22,150 nt of DNA from a virus, in IMG/VR virus record IMGVR_UViG_3300020152_000058, positions 1 to 22,150 of that record; one strand, given 5' to 3'. The position numbers and the translations under genes were made by a program. This document shows positions 5,643 through 21,341 of the stretch, piece after piece; position 1 is the first letter of the stretch, and every line of letters starts with the position of its first letter. The notes under the pieces are model-generated. The model did no database searches. It worked only from the letters and a program-made list of their open reading frames with translations, and was not told the origin of the DNA.

Positions 5643-5812
5643 GCGGCGTTCGCGTTGATATCGATCGGCTTCGCGAGTTGTGCGCGAAGAATCTCAACGC
5701 GCCCCAGATCGCGGGGCGCCTGGGAGTTTCAAAGGACGCTGTGTGGGCGGCATGCAAGAGGCACGGCATCGCTCTTGCTGCGGCTCCTCGCAGCGGAGGG
5801 CGGGCGTCATGA
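5639..5812 (+). CDS. Small HTH protein, 57 aa
   Basis: Begins with ATGA overlap on the P-like gene and ends with ATGA overlap on the next gene. Residues about 8-45 (IDRLRELCAKNLNAPQIAGR, LGVSKDAVWAACKRHGI) form a resolvase/homeodomain-type helix-turn-helix, with a short glycine/arginine tail. The next gene product has a similar HTH (VVAGDLGVTHTTVCRALRRH), so the two may be related. Probable DNA-binding protein, target unknown. Confidence 0.65.
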   Translation: MSGVRVDIDRLRELCAKNLNAPQIAGRLGVSKDAVWAACKRHGIALAAAPRSGGRAS

Positions 5813-6090
5813 TTCTCGTCACCTACACCTGCGAAGAATGCGTTCAGCCCTTTGACAGGCGCCCCAAAAAGAAGGGCTACCGATTCTGCTCGCCGAAGTG
5901 CGCCAACGCCCGGCAAACCAAGCTGACCGCTGAGAGTCTTCGGCCGTACGCGGAGAAGGGCTCGCGCACAAAGGTGGTTGCCGGCGATCTGGGCGTGACT
6001 CACACGACTGTCTGTCGTGCCCTTCGGAGGCATGGCCTGCATCGGCTCTGGTCATTGCGCAGGTTCAAGAAATGTGCGGTGGCGGCGTGA
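5809..6090 (+). CDS. Zinc-finger plus HTH small protein, 93 aa
   Basis: An N-terminal zinc site is visible: C8-x2-C11, then C27-x3-C31 in an FCSPKC context, followed by a helix-turn-helix at about 45-78 (YAEKGSRTKVVAGDLGVTHT, CRALRRHGLHRLW). Start ATG 5809 has GGAGGG upstream and overlaps the previous stop by ATGA; a frame from 5680 is antisense-like. Probable DNA-binding phage protein. Its two-module build differs from the preceding gene only by the added zinc finger. Confidence 0.65.
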   Translation: MILVTYTCEECVQPFDRRPKKKGYRFCSPKCANARQTKLTAESLRPYAEKGSRTKVVAGDLGVTHTTVCRALRRHGLHRLWSLRRFKKCAVAA

Positions 6091-8915: not shown

Positions 8916-9187
8916 CGGGCCAGCCCGGCAGACTCCTGACTGCCGAGCAGTCGGTGAGGCTCGCGATGGTGGACAGCATCGAGCGCGAGAAGATGATTGC
9001 GCTCATCGTTGCTGGACTCCAGGACACGGCCAGATTTGGTCACGGCCGTCCTGGTGGCGCCTGTCCGTATGCGTACTACTCGCAGCCGATTCAGCCGGCC
9101 AAGCGCGTACCCACAAACGCCAGCGCCATGACGCCCACGAGGGCGACGCTCCAGGGCTTGAGCGACGCCGGTGGCAGTCGTTTCTGA
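8912..9187 (+). CDS. Hypothetical protein, 91 aa, overlapping the acyltransferase 3' end
   Basis: GTG 8912 overlaps the previous stop (GTGA). The N-terminal half is helical (LLTAEQSVRLAMVDSIEREK, MIALIVAGLQDTARFGHG) and looks like a real protein. The last about 32 residues are antisense to the end of the acyltransferase gene (9091-9187) and look less natural. One explanation is that insertion of the acyltransferase gene replaced the original end of this frame. No family recognised. Confidence 0.45.
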   Translation: MTGQPGRLLTAEQSVRLAMVDSIEREKMIALIVAGLQDTARFGHGRPGGACPYAYYSQPIQPAKRVPTNASAMTPTRATLQGLSDAGGSRF

Positions 9188-10146
9188 TAGCGAGCCCGGA
9201 TCCAGTCTATTGACGGCGTTTCGGCGAGACGGTGCAGGCCATAGGCCAGCAGAATGCTTCCGGTCGCCGCGATCAGAACCGCAGTGACAGCGTGCACCCC
9301 GGCGCTCTCGGCGCGGATCATGAACGTGTACGACAGGTACTCGTGCAGCAGGTATAGCGGGTAGCTGATCGCCCCGAGCCATACAACCGGCTTGGACGCG
9401 AGCGGCCGGAATGATCCGGTAGCACCGACCCACATGATTCCGAGCACGGCGACCGCCCAGAGGACGTGCAGCGTGCCTTCGTCGATGGCGATATCGGCGA
9501 TAGAGAGCGCGGCGATTGCCGGCCACCATCGATGGTCCTCTAGCTTGTTGACGGCAACGTAGACGGCGATCCCGAGCCCGAACCAGGGAATGAAGCTGAG
9601 CAGGCCGAGCTGAGTAACGACCCAGGGAGTTGGCAGAAACTTCGACGCGACGCTCACGAGCAGCCAGGCGCCCAGCACGAGGAACGGCCGGCGCAGCAGG
9701 CCCAAGGTCCACGCAAGAAACATCAGGACGTAGAAGATCAGCTCGACCTTGAGGCTCCAGTAGGCGCCGTTGACGGACTCGACGCGGAACAGTTCGTGGA
9801 ACATCGCGAAGTTCCACAGGACCTGTTTCAGGCTGACCTCGTGGCCCTTGAGAGGCACGAGCGCCAGGATCAGAGCTGTGAGGAGCATCGCGCACCAGTA
9901 CGTCGGATACAGCCGGCTGAACCGGCCGACGACGAAATCGAGCGGCGCCTTGAGATTTCGGAGCGTCAACAAGATCACGAAGCCGCTGATGGCGAAAAAC
10001 AGCTGCACGCCCAGGCCCCCGAAAGGAAGGCTGATCGGCAGTTCGCTGGTATGGCCATAGAGCTGGTCGTAACGCGTCGTGAGGTGAAAGGACATCACGA
10101 GCAGTGCGGCAATGCCGCGCAGTCCATCGATCTGCGTTATTCGCAT
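9091..10146 (-). CDS. Acyltransferase family 3 membrane protein (O-antigen/envelope acylation), 351 aa
   Basis: Signature of the acyltransferase-3 (OafA/YrhL) family: DGLRGIAALLVMSFH at residues 7-21 with the key histidine H21, GGLGVQLFFAISGFVIL at 43-59, and GRFSRLYPTYW at 74-84. About ten hydrophobic segments run through the protein, as expected for an inner-membrane enzyme passing acyl (usually acetyl) groups to surface polysaccharide. The length of 351 aa fits the membrane domain alone, without the SGNH domain of larger members. It is leftward inside a rightward late block, with AAGGA upstream of ATG 10146, and so is likely a moron expressed in the lysogen that changes O-antigen and blocks superinfection. 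Confidence 0.9.
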   Translation of the reverse strand: MRITQIDGLRGIAALLVMSFHLTTRYDQLYGHTSELPISLPFGGLGVQLFFAISGFVILLTLRNLKAPLDFVVGRFSRLYPTYWCAMLLTALILALVPLKGHEVSLKQVLWNFAMFHELFRVESVNGAYWSLKVELIFYVLMFLAWTLGLLRRPFLVLGAWLLVSVASKFLPTPWVVTQLGLLSFIPWFGLGIAVYVAVNKLEDHRWWPAIAALSIADIAIDEGTLHVLWAVAVLGIMWVGATGSFRPLASKPVVWLGAISYPLYLLHEYLSYTFMIRAESAGVHAVTAVLIAATGSILLAYGLHRLAETPSIDWIRARYQKRLPPASLKPWSVALVGVMALAFVGTRLAG

Positions 10147-10224: not shown

Positions 10225-11415
10225 ATGAAGTTCCATAAAACCGCTGTTTTTCTGCTGTCGATATTTCTAACAGCGGCGGCTTGTGCGGGCGTCGTTCTCA
10301 CGACCGGGACGACTTCGTCGGTCGATGCGGTTCCCAACGCGTTCACGTTCACCGATCAGTCCGACGTTGCGACCTCAAGCACGATCACGAGCGCCGCCGT
10401 CACGATCAGCGGCATCGCGACCTCGATTACCTGCTCGGCGACGGGCGGGACGATCGACAAGAACAGCGGCGGCAGCTTTGCGAGCTCGCAGTCCGTCGCA
10501 AACAACGACACGATTCGGGCGCAGCACACCTCCAGCGCTTCGAACTCGACCGCGGTCAATACCGTCGTCGACTGCAACGGCGTCAGCGACACGTTCACGT
10601 CCACCACCGAGGCGGGCGGTGCGTCGGGTGTGTTCTTCGAGCCGGACGTGGATGCAGCGGCCACGATCCTGTCCATGTTCGATGGCTGGAACGGCGATGG
10701 CCTTGCGCCAACGCTCGTTACCGATGTCGCTCGCCCAGGTCACACCCAATCGATCCGGCTGACGTACACAGCCGATGAGGATGGCTATGACCTCATTCTG
10801 GAAGGGGAGAGCATCGGCGGGCAGATGCCTGCGACAACCTCCTTGTTTGTTCGGAGTTACGAGCGATTCGAGGGGCCATGGGAGGGCAACTGGCCTCAGG
10901 GTCTGAAGACCCTACGAATCTTTTCATCAGCAAACCTGATCGGCTGTCAGGACGCGCCGAACAACTACGCATATGTCTCGGAAAAGATCATCTATCCGGG
11001 CTACGACACTTCGCCCGATCCGCGGCTAGAGGACTACGTCACCTCGGGCAGTTGGGCGTATTGCGATCCGGTTGGTGGCCGGCCCGAGATCGAAGCGACC
11101 TACACAGCCGGCCAAGTCTTTGACAACTCGCTGCCGTACATCCGCACGGGTCATTGGTACAAGTGGGAACGCTGGTACGTAATGAACTCCGCGCCAGGCG
11201 CGGCGGATGGGGTGATGCAAATCTGGATCGATGACGAACTGGTCTTGAATCGTACCAACGTCGTTTATCGGTCGAGCTCGCCGAGCATCGTAGGCACGCA
11301 TTGGCAGAGCATGTGGTGGGGTGGGAATTTCTCGAACACGGGCACATTCAACGCGCCCTCGACGCTATATCGATACATCTCCGATCCGTACGCATCGACG
11401 ACGCTGGACCGCTAA
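10225..11415 (+). CDS. Exported Ig-like plus concanavalin-like (lectin/lyase-fold) protein, 396 aa
   Basis: Signal peptide at about 1-22 (MKFHK, then AVFLLSIFLTAAACA). The region about 25-128 is a Ser/Thr-rich Ig-like fold (FTFTDQSD, VTISGIATSITCSATGG, NNDTIRAQHTS). A GG hinge precedes a C-terminal domain (about 135-396) with the look of a concanavalin-like jelly roll: SIRLTYTADEDGY, HWYKWERWYVMN, VMQIWIDDELVLNRTNVVYR, HWQSMWWGGNF. Such folds occur in polysaccharide lyases and carbohydrate-binding proteins; no catalytic set is evident. Divergent from the acyltransferase, with the stop sharing a base with the next start (TAATG). Likely binds or trims surface glycan. Confidence 0.65.
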   Translation: MKFHKTAVFLLSIFLTAAACAGVVLTTGTTSSVDAVPNAFTFTDQSDVATSSTITSAAVTISGIATSITCSATGGTIDKNSGGSFASSQSVANNDTIRAQHTSSASNSTAVNTVVDCNGVSDTFTSTTEAGGASGVFFEPDVDAAATILSMFDGWNGDGLAPTLVTDVARPGHTQSIRLTYTADEDGYDLILEGESIGGQMPATTSLFVRSYERFEGPWEGNWPQGLKTLRIFSSANLIGCQDAPNNYAYVSEKIIYPGYDTSPDPRLEDYVTSGSWAYCDPVGGRPEIEATYTAGQVFDNSLPYIRTGHWYKWERWYVMNSAPGAADGVMQIWIDDELVLNRTNVVYRSSSPSIVGTHWQSMWWGGNFSNTGTFNAPSTLYRYISDPYASTTLDR

Positions 11416-12104
11416 TGCAGTACTTCAAACAGATCGCCGCGGCACTGGTGCTCTCGCTGATTGTCTGCGCGAGCGCCAGTGCGACGACGGCAACCGGCGA
11501 GTTTGCTTTCAACTTTGCCACGCAAGGTAACGAGAACCCGTTCGTCGATGCGAGTTTCACGGATCGGCTGGCAAGCGATGCGCAGATCAGTGGTGGCTTG
11601 CTGACTCAGGTGGGCTTCGCGCATTACCTCGTCGCATACACCGGCGGCACATACGACGGCGGGTCAATCACCGCATCCGTAGAGGTGGATGCAACCGCGG
11701 TGGACGATGAGGTTCTGGTCGGTGCGCTGGACGAGAACGGCGATGGCTTCATGCTGGAGATCAGCCCGACAGCCGTCTTTGTGCTGGTCTACACCGCGTA
11801 CGCCGTTGTCGATAGCGTCGGCACCGCATCGATCACATTCACTGCGGACGACTTGTTTGAATTCACCCTAACCAAGGGCTCGCCGAACACGTACAGCGCC
11901 ACTCAGAACGGCACGCCCATCACGCTATCGCAGTCCAGTGAGGCTAAAACGCTGGGCACGATGGAGGCGGTGTGGGGTTTCAATGTCGGCAACGCGGGGC
12001 TCGGCACGATCCAGTCGCTGGCCGTGGTGGATGGGTTGAGTGTCGGCGGTGGCGGCGGTTCGGCTGCCGCTCGCGCTGTGCATCACAAACGGCTGAGGAA
12101 TTGA
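11415..12104 (+). CDS. Exported hypothetical beta-rich protein, 229 aa
   Basis: ATG 11415 overlaps the previous stop (TAATG). Signal peptide at about 1-23 (QIAAALVLSLIVCASASA). The mature part is beta-rich and low in lysine (TATGEFAFNFATQG, SITASVEVDATAVDDEVLVG, FTADDLFEFTLTKGSP, AVWGFNVGN), with the look of a jelly-roll or laminin-G-like domain. It ends in a glycine run and a basic tail (AAARAVHHKRLRN). Similarity in layout to the lectin-like protein upstream suggests a surface or virion-surface role. No named family. Confidence 0.6.
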   Translation: MQYFKQIAAALVLSLIVCASASATTATGEFAFNFATQGNENPFVDASFTDRLASDAQISGGLLTQVGFAHYLVAYTGGTYDGGSITASVEVDATAVDDEVLVGALDENGDGFMLEISPTAVFVLVYTAYAVVDSVGTASITFTADDLFEFTLTKGSPNTYSATQNGTPITLSQSSEAKTLGTMEAVWGFNVGNAGLGTIQSLAVVDGLSVGGGGGSAAARAVHHKRLRN

Positions 12105-12105
12105 G

Positions 12106-12903
12106 ATGATCCGAAAGAATAGCGTTCTTCGCCGGCCGTTCTATCGTGCCCAATGGGCCGTCCTCTGCCTGCTGTCGCTACTCGCTGCGGTACCGACACA
12201 TGCAGATTGCGTGCTCCGTCAGAGCGATGCAGTCGAGCTTCCTCTGGGTCAATTCGTCGACGCGACGGACGGAGTCACCGCCGAAACGGGATTGACCATC
12301 AGTCAGGCGGATGTTCAGTTGAAGAAATGCGCCGCCGCTGGCGATTGCGGGGCGATGGCTCAAAAGAGCGATACGAGCGCCTGCGCCCACGATGCGCTAG
12401 GCGTGTATGAGTGCGACCTCAACGCCACCGATACCGACACGGTCGGAACATTGTTCATCTACGTCAACGAATCCGGCGCACTCACCGAGCGCGCGGTGTG
12501 CCAGGTTGTCGAGGAGGCTGTCTTCGATGCGTGCTGTGCTGGCAGTTCCGCGCCGCTGACGGCTGCGGGTGTGTGGTCGAACGGCACGCGCTCGCTAACC
12601 GAGCTCGACGAAGACAATACGACTATCGACATCAATGGCACGGCCACGGGTGCTGCGGCCTCTGTTGCGGGCACGGTCAATGGCCTGACAGCAACGGCTC
12701 AAGGGAACGTTCGGGATGCGCTCGGCATGAGTGCGGCAAACCTCGATACGCAGCTGTCTGGCCTGGATACGCTGCTCGACACCATCGCGGCGTACATCGA
12801 CACCGAAATTCAGACGCTGCTGAACGGCGTCGACATTGAGAGCATCAACGATGTGGCCATCACCGGAGATGGCTCTGGCACGCCGTTCACCGTCTCGCCC
12901 TAA
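12106..12903 (+). CDS. Exported virion-type protein, 265 aa
   Basis: N-terminal signal about 1-33 (basic MIRKNSVLRRPFYR, core WAVLCLLSLLAAVPTHA). The mature part starts with a beta domain (LRQSDAVELPLGQFVDATDG, LTISQADVQLKKCAAAGDCG, ALGVYECDLNATDTD, VGTLFIYVNESGAL) like those in tail or neck proteins of siphophages that bind near LPLG-type segments. A C-terminal helical segment follows (DTQLSGLDTLLDTIAAYIDT). Cysteines are frequent (eight or more), fitting disulfides in the periplasm. Stop abuts the next start. A signal peptide on such a domain is unusual. Confidence 0.6.
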   Translation: MIRKNSVLRRPFYRAQWAVLCLLSLLAAVPTHADCVLRQSDAVELPLGQFVDATDGVTAETGLTISQADVQLKKCAAAGDCGAMAQKSDTSACAHDALGVYECDLNATDTDTVGTLFIYVNESGALTERAVCQVVEEAVFDACCAGSSAPLTAAGVWSNGTRSLTELDEDNTTIDINGTATGAAASVAGTVNGLTATAQGNVRDALGMSAANLDTQLSGLDTLLDTIAAYIDTEIQTLLNGVDIESINDVAITGDGSGTPFTVSP

Positions 12904-13302
12904 ATGAAACTTCGTCTCGGAGCGCTTACTTTCCTGGCGCTCTACATTCCAACAGCGAATGCCAGTCTCGAGGAAGACGGCGTATGGGCTGCTGGTGTGT
13001 GGGCGACAACCGTCTGGGCTGACGGGGTATGGCTAGAGGGCGAAGTCTCAGCAGTCTCGGTGCCGGATCTTGCTGGCATGACTGAGGTGGAAGCAGATGC
13101 GGCACTTGAAGGCGTGGGTCTGGACACCGGGACTGTATCGACGGTGTGTTCAGCGGCGACGGCCGGCGATGTGGTGAGCCAGGCTCCGCCGGCAGGCGCA
13201 GCGGTCGCACCCGGATCGCTCGTCAATATCGCGTTGAGCAGCGGCACTCCCTGTGTTGGCGCTGGCGGCAAACTGAAACTCAGACTGGACTTGAGGCTAT
13301 AG
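12904..13302 (+). CDS. Exported PASTA-domain protein, 132 aa
   Basis: Signal about 1-20 (LRLGALTFLALYIPTANA). Residues 27-44 repeat GVWAAGVWATTVWADGVW, a Trp-rich motif. A PASTA domain follows at about 51-114: VSVPDLAGMTEVEADAALEG, then VGLDTGTVSTVCSAA, then VVSQAPPAGAAVAPGSLVNI. The VPDL-G-MT-EA, Q-P-AG and PGS-VNI motifs are all present. PASTA domains often bind peptidoglycan. A cysteine pair (C82, C117) could form a disulfide. It is coupled directly to the preceding gene. Likely acts at the cell wall; exact role unknown. Confidence 0.75.
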   Translation: MKLRLGALTFLALYIPTANASLEEDGVWAAGVWATTVWADGVWLEGEVSAVSVPDLAGMTEVEADAALEGVGLDTGTVSTVCSAATAGDVVSQAPPAGAAVAPGSLVNIALSSGTPCVGAGGKLKLRLDLRL

Positions 13303-19059: not shown

Positions 19060-19128
19060 GCCGATTGGTAGCTCAGCCTGGTAGAGCGCTCGACGGAGAG
19101 GTCGCCGGTTCAAATCCGGCCCAACGGC
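19060..19128 (+). ncRNA. tRNA-like element lacking an anticodon loop
   Basis: Canonical parts: positions 8-9 as TA (19069-19070), D stem GCTC/GAGC (19071-19074 and 19084-19087) with loop AGCCTGGTA holding the conserved GG, variable loop AGGTC (19099-19103), T stem GCCGG/CCGGC (19104-19108 and 19116-19120) and T loop TTCAAAT. The acceptor stem is eight base pairs, GCCG+TTGG against CCAACGGC, with one bulged A (19064), against seven in normal tRNA. Between base 26 (19088) and the variable loop only ten bases remain (CTCGACGGAG) instead of 17: a 3-bp stem CTC/GAG with GACG loop. No anticodon exists, so it cannot decode. No CCA is encoded. It lies between the Bbp19-like and scaffold genes. Confidence 0.8.
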
Positions 19129-19154: not shown

Positions 19155-20129
19155 ATGCCCGACCCGAATCCGAATCCAAACCCGACGCCAGATCCGAGCG
19201 CGAATCCGAATCCCGGCAATCCGAATCCCGCGCCGGCCACTTGGTACAGCGGTATCGACTTCGGCGACGCAAAGGACACCGCGTCGAAGGCGCTGGAGGT
19301 CTACAAGACCCCGGCCGATCTTCTTGGCGCGCTTGACTGGCGCAAGCAAATATCGGGCGGCGACGAAAAGACGCTGAAGGCATTCGAGCGATTCAGCACC
19401 ATCGGCGACGTGGGCAAATCGTTCCTGGAGGCGCAGGCCAAGATCCGCTCCGGCGAGCTCGCCAAGCCGCTGCCAAAGGACGCGACGGCCGAGCAGGTAG
19501 CCGAATGGCGCAAGGGCAACGGTATCCCGGAGAAGCCCGAGGATTACTTCAACGGCCTGCCGAACGGCCTGGTCATTGGCGCCGACGACAAACCGATGTT
19601 CGATGCCGTCGCGACCAAGCTGCACGAGCTGAATGCCAAGCCGGAAGTCATCCATGCGCTGGCCGACTGGTATTACGGCATGCAGGACGAGCAGGTCGAG
19701 GCGCAGAAGGTCGCCGACACTGAGGGCAAGACGAAGCTGACCGGCGCGCTCAAGACTGCCTGGGGCAACGACTTCGCGGCGAACAGCAATGTTTACGCCA
19801 GCTACATCGCATCGGCCCCGAAGGAAGTGCAGGAGTTCCTGACGCAGGCTCGTGGGCCGGATGGAAGTTTCCTGCTCTACAACCCGGCGATCGTTTCCTG
19901 GCTCACAGCTCAGGCGCGCGAGATCAATCCGGCAGGGCATATCGTGCCGAGCGCTGGCGCTGACGGTGGATTGCAGTCGATCACTACCGAGATCGCAACG
20001 CTCAAGGGGCTGATGGCCAACGAGTCGTCCGAATACTGGAAGGGCCCGAAGGCCGAGGCCAACCAGGCGCGATATCGCCAGTTGGTGGAAGCACAGGCGC
20101 GATTGCAGGAGCGCGGCAGGGCGGCCTGA
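19155..20129 (+). CDS. Scaffold-like protein, 324 aa
   Basis: Start at ATG 19155 behind GGAGACAGG. An in-frame start at 19065 would translate through the tRNA-like element and is rejected. The N-terminus is a Pro/Asn repeat (DPNPNPNPTPDPSANPNP, about 2-30). The rest is helical, charged and cysteine-free (ALDWRKQISGGDEKTLKAFE, AEWRKGNGIPEKPEDYFNG, ATLKGLMANESSEYWKGPKA), with the C-terminal basic helix (RYRQLVEAQARLQERGR) typical of scaffolds that bind coat. Its place directly before the coat gene (with the antitoxin between) supports the call. Catalytic protease residues are not seen. Confidence 0.75.
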   Translation: MPDPNPNPNPTPDPSANPNPGNPNPAPATWYSGIDFGDAKDTASKALEVYKTPADLLGALDWRKQISGGDEKTLKAFERFSTIGDVGKSFLEAQAKIRSGELAKPLPKDATAEQVAEWRKGNGIPEKPEDYFNGLPNGLVIGADDKPMFDAVATKLHELNAKPEVIHALADWYYGMQDEQVEAQKVADTEGKTKLTGALKTAWGNDFAANSNVYASYIASAPKEVQEFLTQARGPDGSFLLYNPAIVSWLTAQAREINPAGHIVPSAGADGGLQSITTEIATLKGLMANESSEYWKGPKAEANQARYRQLVEAQARLQERGRAA

Positions 20130-20332
20130 TGCGCGTCAAGGTTGAATCGTTGCGTGCGGAGCTTGCAGATGTTCTCCGGGGCGTCGCGCAGCAACCGGTG
20201 ACGGTCACTCGCTATGGGGAGGCCGTCGCCGTGATCGTTTCACCACAGGACTTCGCAGAGCTGACTCGGCTGCGAGGTCTGTACAGGAAACGTTCCGTCG
20301 AAAGGAGAAACGTACTAGCTTCATGTGCGTGA
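20129..20332 (+). CDS. Phd/YefM-type antitoxin, 67 aa, without a toxin
   Basis: ATG 20129 shares a base with the scaffold stop (TGATG). The sequence VESLRAELADVLRGVAQQPV, then VTRYGEAVAVIVSPQDFAEL has the Phd/YefM layout: N-terminal dimer/DNA-binding domain with the xTRxGxxVAVIVSxxxFxxL motif. Phd-type antitoxins are commonly about 70-85 aa; the C-terminal toxin-binding part here (LRGLYRKRSVERRNVLASCA) is short. No toxin gene lies within reach: the next frame is the coat gene. A standalone antitoxin could neutralise a host toxin during infection, or regulate transcription; both are inference. Confidence 0.75.
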   Translation: MRVKVESLRAELADVLRGVAQQPVTVTRYGEAVAVIVSPQDFAELTRLRGLYRKRSVERRNVLASCA

Positions 20333-20495
20333 TCGGCTAACCCGAAAGGCCCCGGTCACTGAATGTCTCTTTTGCTGTAGCAAGGCCCCGCCCTTGTCGA
20401 TCGCAGGCCCGGCGCAACGCCGCTAACCCTGCGCAGACTTTTCAGCGGCCAACCCGAGCGAAGGCTTCAAACCCTTTACTTTGGAGTTGGCATCA
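20333..20495. other. Structured non-coding gap before the coat gene
   Basis: No gene is seen in these 163 bases. Two copies of AAGGCCCCG occur at 20346-20354 and 20382-20390. GCCGCT (20419-20424) pairs with AGCGGC (20444-20449) around a T-rich loop, and GGCG-CAA-CGCC (20411-20421) can form a competing hairpin. No classic T-tailed terminator is visible. TTTGGAG lies before ATG 20496. The gap may adjust coat mRNA stability, so that coat is made in excess over upstream proteins (inference). Confidence 0.4.
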
Positions 20496-21341
20496 ATGGC
20501 GGATACCGCATTTCAAGTTCAGTACCGCGATGAGTTCATCGCAAAGTTCGAGCAGCGCCAGTCTCTGCTGCGCAGCTCGGTCACGACCGAAGCGGTCATC
20601 AAGGGCAACCAGGCAACGTTCCTGACCGCTGGCAGCGGTTCGGCAACTGCCGTGACTCGCGGCGTCAATGGCCTCATCCCGGCGCGCGCAGACGATCTCA
20701 CCCAGTCCACGGCGACGCTGGTCGAGTGGCACGATCTGTCGCGAGCCACGAACTTCAACATCTTCGCGAGCCAGGGCAATCGGCGCGCGATCATGCAGAA
20801 CACAACCCAGGCTGTCATCAATCGCAAGATTGATAGCGACATTCTGACCACGCTGGCCACTGGCACTGTCACGACTGGTGCGGCGGTGACGGCAAGCGTG
20901 GGCCTCGTGGCCAAGGCGAAGACGAAGCTCGGCAACGCCGGTGTGCCGTGGGATTCGAACATCACGGCGGTCATCTCGCCGGCCTTCGAAGGCTACCTGA
21001 TGCAGACCAAGGAATTCGCCTCGCGCGAGTACGTTGGTAAGCCGCCTTCGGATGGTGCCGACGCCGCGTGGCGCGATCAGCCTCGTGCGTTCTTCTGGTA
21101 TGGCGTCATGTGGATCGTTCATCCGAACGTCTCTGGCGTGGGGACGGCTTCCGAGTCGTGCTTCATGTACCACAAGTCGGCGATCGGTCACGCGATCAAC
21201 ACTGCCGGGCTGGACTCTCTCGTCGGCTACGACGGCGAACAGAACTACACCTGGGCGCGCTGCTCGGTCGATATGGGATCGGTCCTGCTGCAGAACAGCG
21301 GCGTGGTCGAGATGGTCCATGACGGCTCGGCGCTGGCTTAA
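20496..21341 (+). CDS. Major capsid (coat) protein, 281 aa
   Basis: Start at ATG 20496 with TTTGGAG upstream (a TTG at 20481 is possible). The sequence fits a short HK97-fold-type coat: N-terminal FQVQYRDEFIAKFEQRQSLL, mid RATNFNIFASQGNRRAIMQN, then VINRKIDSDILTTLATGTVT, and C-terminal FFWYGVMWIVHPNVSG, HKSAIGHAINTAGLDS, YTWARCSVDMGSVLLQNSGV. The RKIDSDIL helix and the strand-rich C-terminal domain with a W-I-V-H-P segment are typical of BPP-1-like coats. It comes after the scaffold and before a small head protein, the usual order. Confidence 0.88.
   Translation: MADTAFQVQYRDEFIAKFEQRQSLLRSSVTTEAVIKGNQATFLTAGSGSATAVTRGVNGLIPARADDLTQSTATLVEWHDLSRATNFNIFASQGNRRAIMQNTTQAVINRKIDSDILTTLATGTVTTGAAVTASVGLVAKAKTKLGNAGVPWDSNITAVISPAFEGYLMQTKEFASREYVGKPPSDGADAAWRDQPRAFFWYGVMWIVHPNVSGVGTASESCFMYHKSAIGHAINTAGLDSLVGYDGEQNYTWARCSVDMGSVLLQNSGVVEMVHDGSALA

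Follow-up and report, generated by a model that had tools for sequence, protein, structure and literature searches.

A gene of the Phd/YefM antitoxin family is located between the scaffold-like and major capsid protein genes of the window analysed here, a viral record of 22,150 bases that is classed as linear and is therefore probably a fragment. No recognisable toxin gene accompanies it, its N-terminal part is constrained while its tail is not, and a TGTACA palindrome is retained within it. The reading we prefer, and to which we give about an even chance, is that the gene encodes a stand-alone DNA-binding protein of the Phd/YefM fold, a toxinless entrant to the scaffold-capsid gap that would act as a TGTACA-binding modulator of transcription.

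A Phd/YefM-family gene in the scaffold-capsid gap

The gene and its neighbours are as follows.

19155..20129, + strand: scaffold-like head gene upstream of the Phd gene (phrog_3742, E 5e-29; the label reflects position and resemblance, and phrog_3742 carries no function annotation)
20129..20332, + strand: solitary Phd/YefM-family gene (PF02604 and TIGR01552 above curated cut-offs; same-position homologues)
Phd protein, residues 1-48: predicted DNA-binding/dimerisation module, from the family match
Phd protein, residues 46-67: short basic tail, from the tail comparison
20496..21341, + strand: major capsid protein gene, downstream (phrog_3437, E 2e-58; Phage_capsid_2, E 7e-22)

The open reading frame at 20129-20332 (+) begins with ATG and encodes a 67-residue protein, MRVKVESLRAELADVLRGVAQQPVTVTRYGEAVAVIVSPQDFAELTRLRGLYRKRSVERRNVLASCA. 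PF02604 (PhdYeFM_antitox) matches residues 5-48 at 31.2 bits (curated cut-off 29.8) and TIGR01552 (phd_fam, NCBIfam) matches at 28.4 (cut-off 20.8), which bears out the family assignment made in the original prediction; the homologues in two other loci, L002 and L008, likewise score above both cut-offs. In the PDB, a profile built from the three genes matches P1 Phd (E 1e-4, residues 3-45). The protein is predicted to adopt the Phd fold of a helix, two strands and a helix: the structural model, of low confidence (pLDDT 59), places helices at residues 5-20 and 39-53 and strands at 25-29 and 32-36, and its top Foldseek matches are RelJ and YefM, all with E > 3, so that the fold assignment depends on sequence. 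The same-place homologues, together with a coding-type pattern of substitution between the window and L002 (6, 1 and 25 changes at codon positions 1, 2 and 3 of the first 53 codons), indicate that this is a real gene and not a chance reading frame.

The L002 gene (83% identity) is the only close homologue recovered by a protein scan of viral contigs. The L008 homologue (48% identity) was found by searching all frames of 80 loci obtained from a capsid-protein scan of the viral contigs, and it lies in a 51 kb record that carries an integrase, so that this phage may be temperate. No further copies are present in 31 additional loci from a scaffold-protein scan, there is no close homologue among 50,697 phage records, and a profile scan of genome_contigs gave one weak match only, in a Hellea genome (29% identity over 51 residues); the known homologous genes number three in all. 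In all three carriers the gene occupies the same position, between scaffold and capsid, and none of the approximately 75 other loci in which both of these genes are visible has a copy. The gap instead contains an HNH (AP2-type) endonuclease gene in L009 (5287-5796), small genes in many loci, L003, L004 and L010 among them, and no gene in L005 and L115; because of this variety the Phd gene is best regarded, on comparative grounds, as cargo in a variable gap. In many relatives the gap encodes small basic proteins. Two of the small open reading frames (L020 5608-5802 and L004 2646-2861) have very weak antitoxin-family matches (BrnA, E 0.15; HI1420-type addiction antidote, E 0.08) that could be due to chance.

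The stop codon of the scaffold gene (TGA, 20127-20129) and the start codon of the Phd gene (ATG, 20129-20131) have one base in common, forming UGAUG. The junction in L002 is identical, and that in L008 is an ATGA overlap. Termination-reinitiation, by which the translation of neighbouring genes can be coupled, has been linked to stop-start overlaps of this type (PMC6728339), and the earlier suggestion that the gene is coupled to the scaffold stop agrees with a one-base overlap typical of coupled translation and with the presence of an overlap in all three carriers. Such coupling would give the bulk late expression that was also proposed.

The original prediction described the gene as solitary, with no toxin alongside, and this is upheld by the searches performed. 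RelE/ParE, YoeB, Doc/Fic and PIN toxins were sought in all six frames of the window, the 51-kb L008 record, L002 and the L115 record, and none was found, although control genomes gave signal in the same searches. Pfam scans of the window and L008 genome open reading frames revealed no toxin, and a PADLOC scan of the L008 open reading frames reported nothing. The cognate toxin gene expected of a type II toxin-antitoxin system was not recognised in the four records, either near the gene or elsewhere, and the same-position homologues in L002 and L008 are also without a recognisable toxin. For the window this result covers 22,150 bases of a fragment, and a distant toxin could lie outside them.

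Several other features of the window are noted. Just ahead of the scaffold gene there is a tRNA-like element (19062-19127) whose anticodon arm is shrunken; it reaches 36.3 bits with Rfam RF00005, for which the gathering score is 29. ARAGORN reports no tRNA here, and the element is absent from all fetched relatives, including L002. A leftwards gene at 9091-10146 (-) encodes a probable membrane acyltransferase (Acyl_transf_3, E 1e-26, matched to the open reading frame by sequence) that is possibly cell-surface-modifying cargo. The run of open reading frames at 10225-13302 is probably the source of the Polysacc_lyase_14 and PASTA matches among the window open reading frames; PASTA is unusual for a phage.

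Selection on the DNA-binding part and the tail

The two parts of the Phd gene show different patterns of change. Over the first 53 codons the window and L002 proteins are 91% identical, with dN 0.054 and dS 1.16, whereas the last 14 shared codons have 5, 6 and 7 changes at codon positions 1, 2 and 3 and only 43% amino acid identity; the contrast gives Fisher p values of 0.0004 for amino acid identity and 0.013 for codon position. For comparison, the scaffold genes of the same pair have dN 0.28 and dS 0.94, and both dS values are near saturation. By this pattern the DNA-binding part is under strong purifying selection and the tail is apparently unconstrained. Against L008 the N-terminal part is 51% identical (dN 0.40) and the scaffold protein 66% identical, and because the Phd gene is here the more diverged of the two, a past exchange at this site is possible.

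These data bear on whether the gene is a neutral or decaying passenger, the remaining front half of a toxin-antitoxin module once imported, now stranded in the cargo gap without a function. The variability of the gap fits such an origin, as do the loss of family features from the tail and the continuation of the L002 frame into the capsid leader. However, between the window and L002 the first 53 codons are under stronger purifying selection than the scaffold gene, three intact copies are present at one site, and the stop-start overlap is kept in all three, and we regard a passenger as rather doubtful.

The tail itself is unlike those of the antitoxins with which it was compared, namely P1 Phd and 30 cellular loci, many of which have an adjoining toxin-like open reading frame. 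Past the conserved core there are 22 residues in the window protein, 26 in P1 Phd and at least 34 in the 30 cellular members; the tails of the window, L002 and L008 proteins are 22, 33 and 22 residues long, as against 26-57 in the 31 comparison antitoxins. The original description of the C-terminal toxin-binding part as short therefore holds relative to the cellular proteins but applies only slightly beside P1 Phd, whose stretch past the core is four residues longer. Net charge is +6, +7 and +4 in the window, L002 and L008 tails, and averages -0.7 in the 31 comparators (sd 2.5, range -7 to +5). The YefM-type comparators share a conserved tail motif that the phage proteins do not have, and the conserved C-terminal toxin-binding segment of a type II module is not seen in a tail that is short, basic and divergent.

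Toxinless phage antitoxins are usually taken as counter-defence tools, and the original prediction proposed accordingly that this one counters host Doc- or RelE-like toxins. The protein would then be a functional antitoxin, produced late and neutralising YoeB-, RelE- or Doc-type host toxins freed during infection. It belongs to the right family, its tail past the core is close in length to that of P1 Phd, and there are precedents, both in toxinless phage antitoxins with that proposed role, such as those described for cyanophage S-CREM1 (PMC9964418), and in the phage protein Dmd, which works as an antitoxin (PMC7354431). Nonetheless the basic tail differs among the three homologues and is apparently unconstrained between the window and L002, the YefM-type motif is missing, and head-gene timing would probably be late against early toxin action. 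We consider a functional antitoxin unlikely, and neutralising a toxin is probably not the job of this protein. The alternative that had been mentioned in passing, a protein acting only as a DNA-binding regulator, appears the better fit to the pattern of constraint. More generally, comparing the constraint on the DNA-binding part with that on the toxin-binding tail offers a way to tell regulatory from counter-toxin use.

The capsid leader RNA and a TGTACA palindrome

The 165 bases from the Phd stop codon to the capsid start constitute an RNA element.

20331..20495, + strand: conserved structured RNA leader of the capsid gene, from the covariance model and hairpin covariation
L002 4869-5028, L008 5839-6000, L005 5834-6000 and about 25 further loci: copies of the leader

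With a covariance model, a copy is detected immediately before the capsid gene in about 28 of the 62 loci searched (E < 0.01), a total that includes the five leaders from which the model was built. The first hairpin (20331-20357) begins within the Phd stop codon and has a six-pair stem, a CYAAC/CC internal loop and a short inner stem. In an alignment of 17 sequences, trimmed by eye, 92.8% of its pairs are kept and there are 38 double-change cells against 10.5 in shuffles (none of 500 shuffles was as high); all slid controls collapse. The hairpin motif is GATCGG-CTAAC-CC..GG-CC-CCGGTC, and there is a copy with a mirrored internal loop, GCAGG-CC..CTAAC-CCTGC. Folding of the single leader sequence is only slightly better than that of shuffles (z -1.45), so the support for the leader comes from covariation. 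A comparison with Rfam gave no matching family, even with E values up to 1 allowed, and this capsid-gene element may merit separate study. The variable cargo gap that precedes it is a useful annotation landmark in this group of phages.

We considered the leader as part of the Phd gene and rejected this, since the leader is present where the gene is missing. A related proposal is that the small basic protein acts not on DNA but in the virion or on the capsid leader RNA, with a role in head assembly or at the mRNA. Its location between scaffold and capsid in the head cassette, the overlap of its stop codon with the first leader hairpin, and the small basic proteins that many relatives encode in the gap would all be in keeping with this. 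The leader nevertheless occurs without the Phd gene in L005, L115, L009 and many more loci, so the protein is not required for it, and Phd domains are known to bind DNA; a head or mRNA role is in our estimation improbable.

Towards the 3' end of the Phd gene there is a short palindrome.

20280..20285, no strand: TGTACA core, candidate operator, within the 8-bp palindrome CTGTACAG (20279-20286) in the 3' part of the gene

TGTACA occupies the same codons in the window, L002 and L008 genes, and the 8-bp palindrome is CTGTACAG in the window and L002 and GTGTACAC in L008, the flanks covarying such that the palindrome is kept. Besides one contiguous 8-base stretch, TGTACA is the sole in-register hexamer common to the window and L008. 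TGTACA is the operator core of YefM and Axe (PMC7730913, PMC4803016), and in the 150 bp preceding each of 30 cellular PhdYefM genes we observe a total of 10 occurrences where 0.41 are expected, mainly at genes of the yefM-yoeB type. The 51-kb L008 genome contains only two TGTACA palindromes extended to 10 bp, which lie less than 400 bp apart, one at the end of the scaffold gene and the other in the Phd gene. The palindrome was chosen after being noticed, so that the comparison is post hoc and concerns three related genes, and chance retention is made likelier by the invariance of its tyrosine codon. In the whole window there are four TGTACA sites against 1.5 expected, which is not a significant enrichment; inspection revealed no paired palindromes with the 12-bp spacing of the YefM operator, and no sigma-70-like promoter was found near the palindrome on the + strand. 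These observations are at most suggestive of an operator. In the L005 region 5801-5817, which is without a Phd gene, a perfect 14-bp palindrome (TGAACGATCGTTCA) lies just past the scaffold stop and is also a possible operator.

For the stand-alone regulator that we prefer, a plausible scenario is that the Phd gene entered the variable gap of this phage lineage with no toxin accompanying it, and that its product is probably translated alongside the head proteins by stop-start coupling off the scaffold gene. The protein would most likely dimerise, and the dimer most likely bind palindromes with a TGTACA core, one of them in the 3' end of its own gene, thereby modulating local transcription of its own operon, host toxin-antitoxin operators with the same core, or both. 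A narrower version, which we advance tentatively, is that an antitoxin has been cut to its DNA-binding half and serves as a late regulator at the head-cassette TGTACA or at host yefM-yoeB-type operators, repressing there or mixing with host autoregulation and leaving the toxin itself alone. If true, this would be an example of a phage that took from a toxin-antitoxin system just the half that reads the operator.

Comparison with known systems

P1 Phd of phd-doc belongs to the same domain family and is the best PDB sequence match, with 73 residues compared with 67 here. It is paired with Doc and its tail has a charge of -1, whereas the window gene lies in a head cassette without Doc and has a tail of charge +6 that is not conserved; outside P1-like phages, P1 phd itself was found in a single Salmonella record only. 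YefM (yefM-yoeB) and Axe (axe-txe) share the Pfam family and likewise have a TGTACA core in or near the gene, but the window gene has no YoeB or Txe partner, nor the tail motif shared by YefM-type comparators. The YefM operator moreover consists of two palindromes 12 bp apart in the promoter (PMC7730913), in contrast to the single palindrome inside the window gene. The nearest parallel for an antitoxin without a toxin is cyanophage S-CREM1, for which YefM, TacA and MazE are reported solely as antitoxins and a counter-toxin use has been proposed (PMC9964418); the comparison is by description only, and the portion of that account which deals with these proteins does not describe a head-cassette location or an unconstrained tail, both of which are features of the gene reported here.
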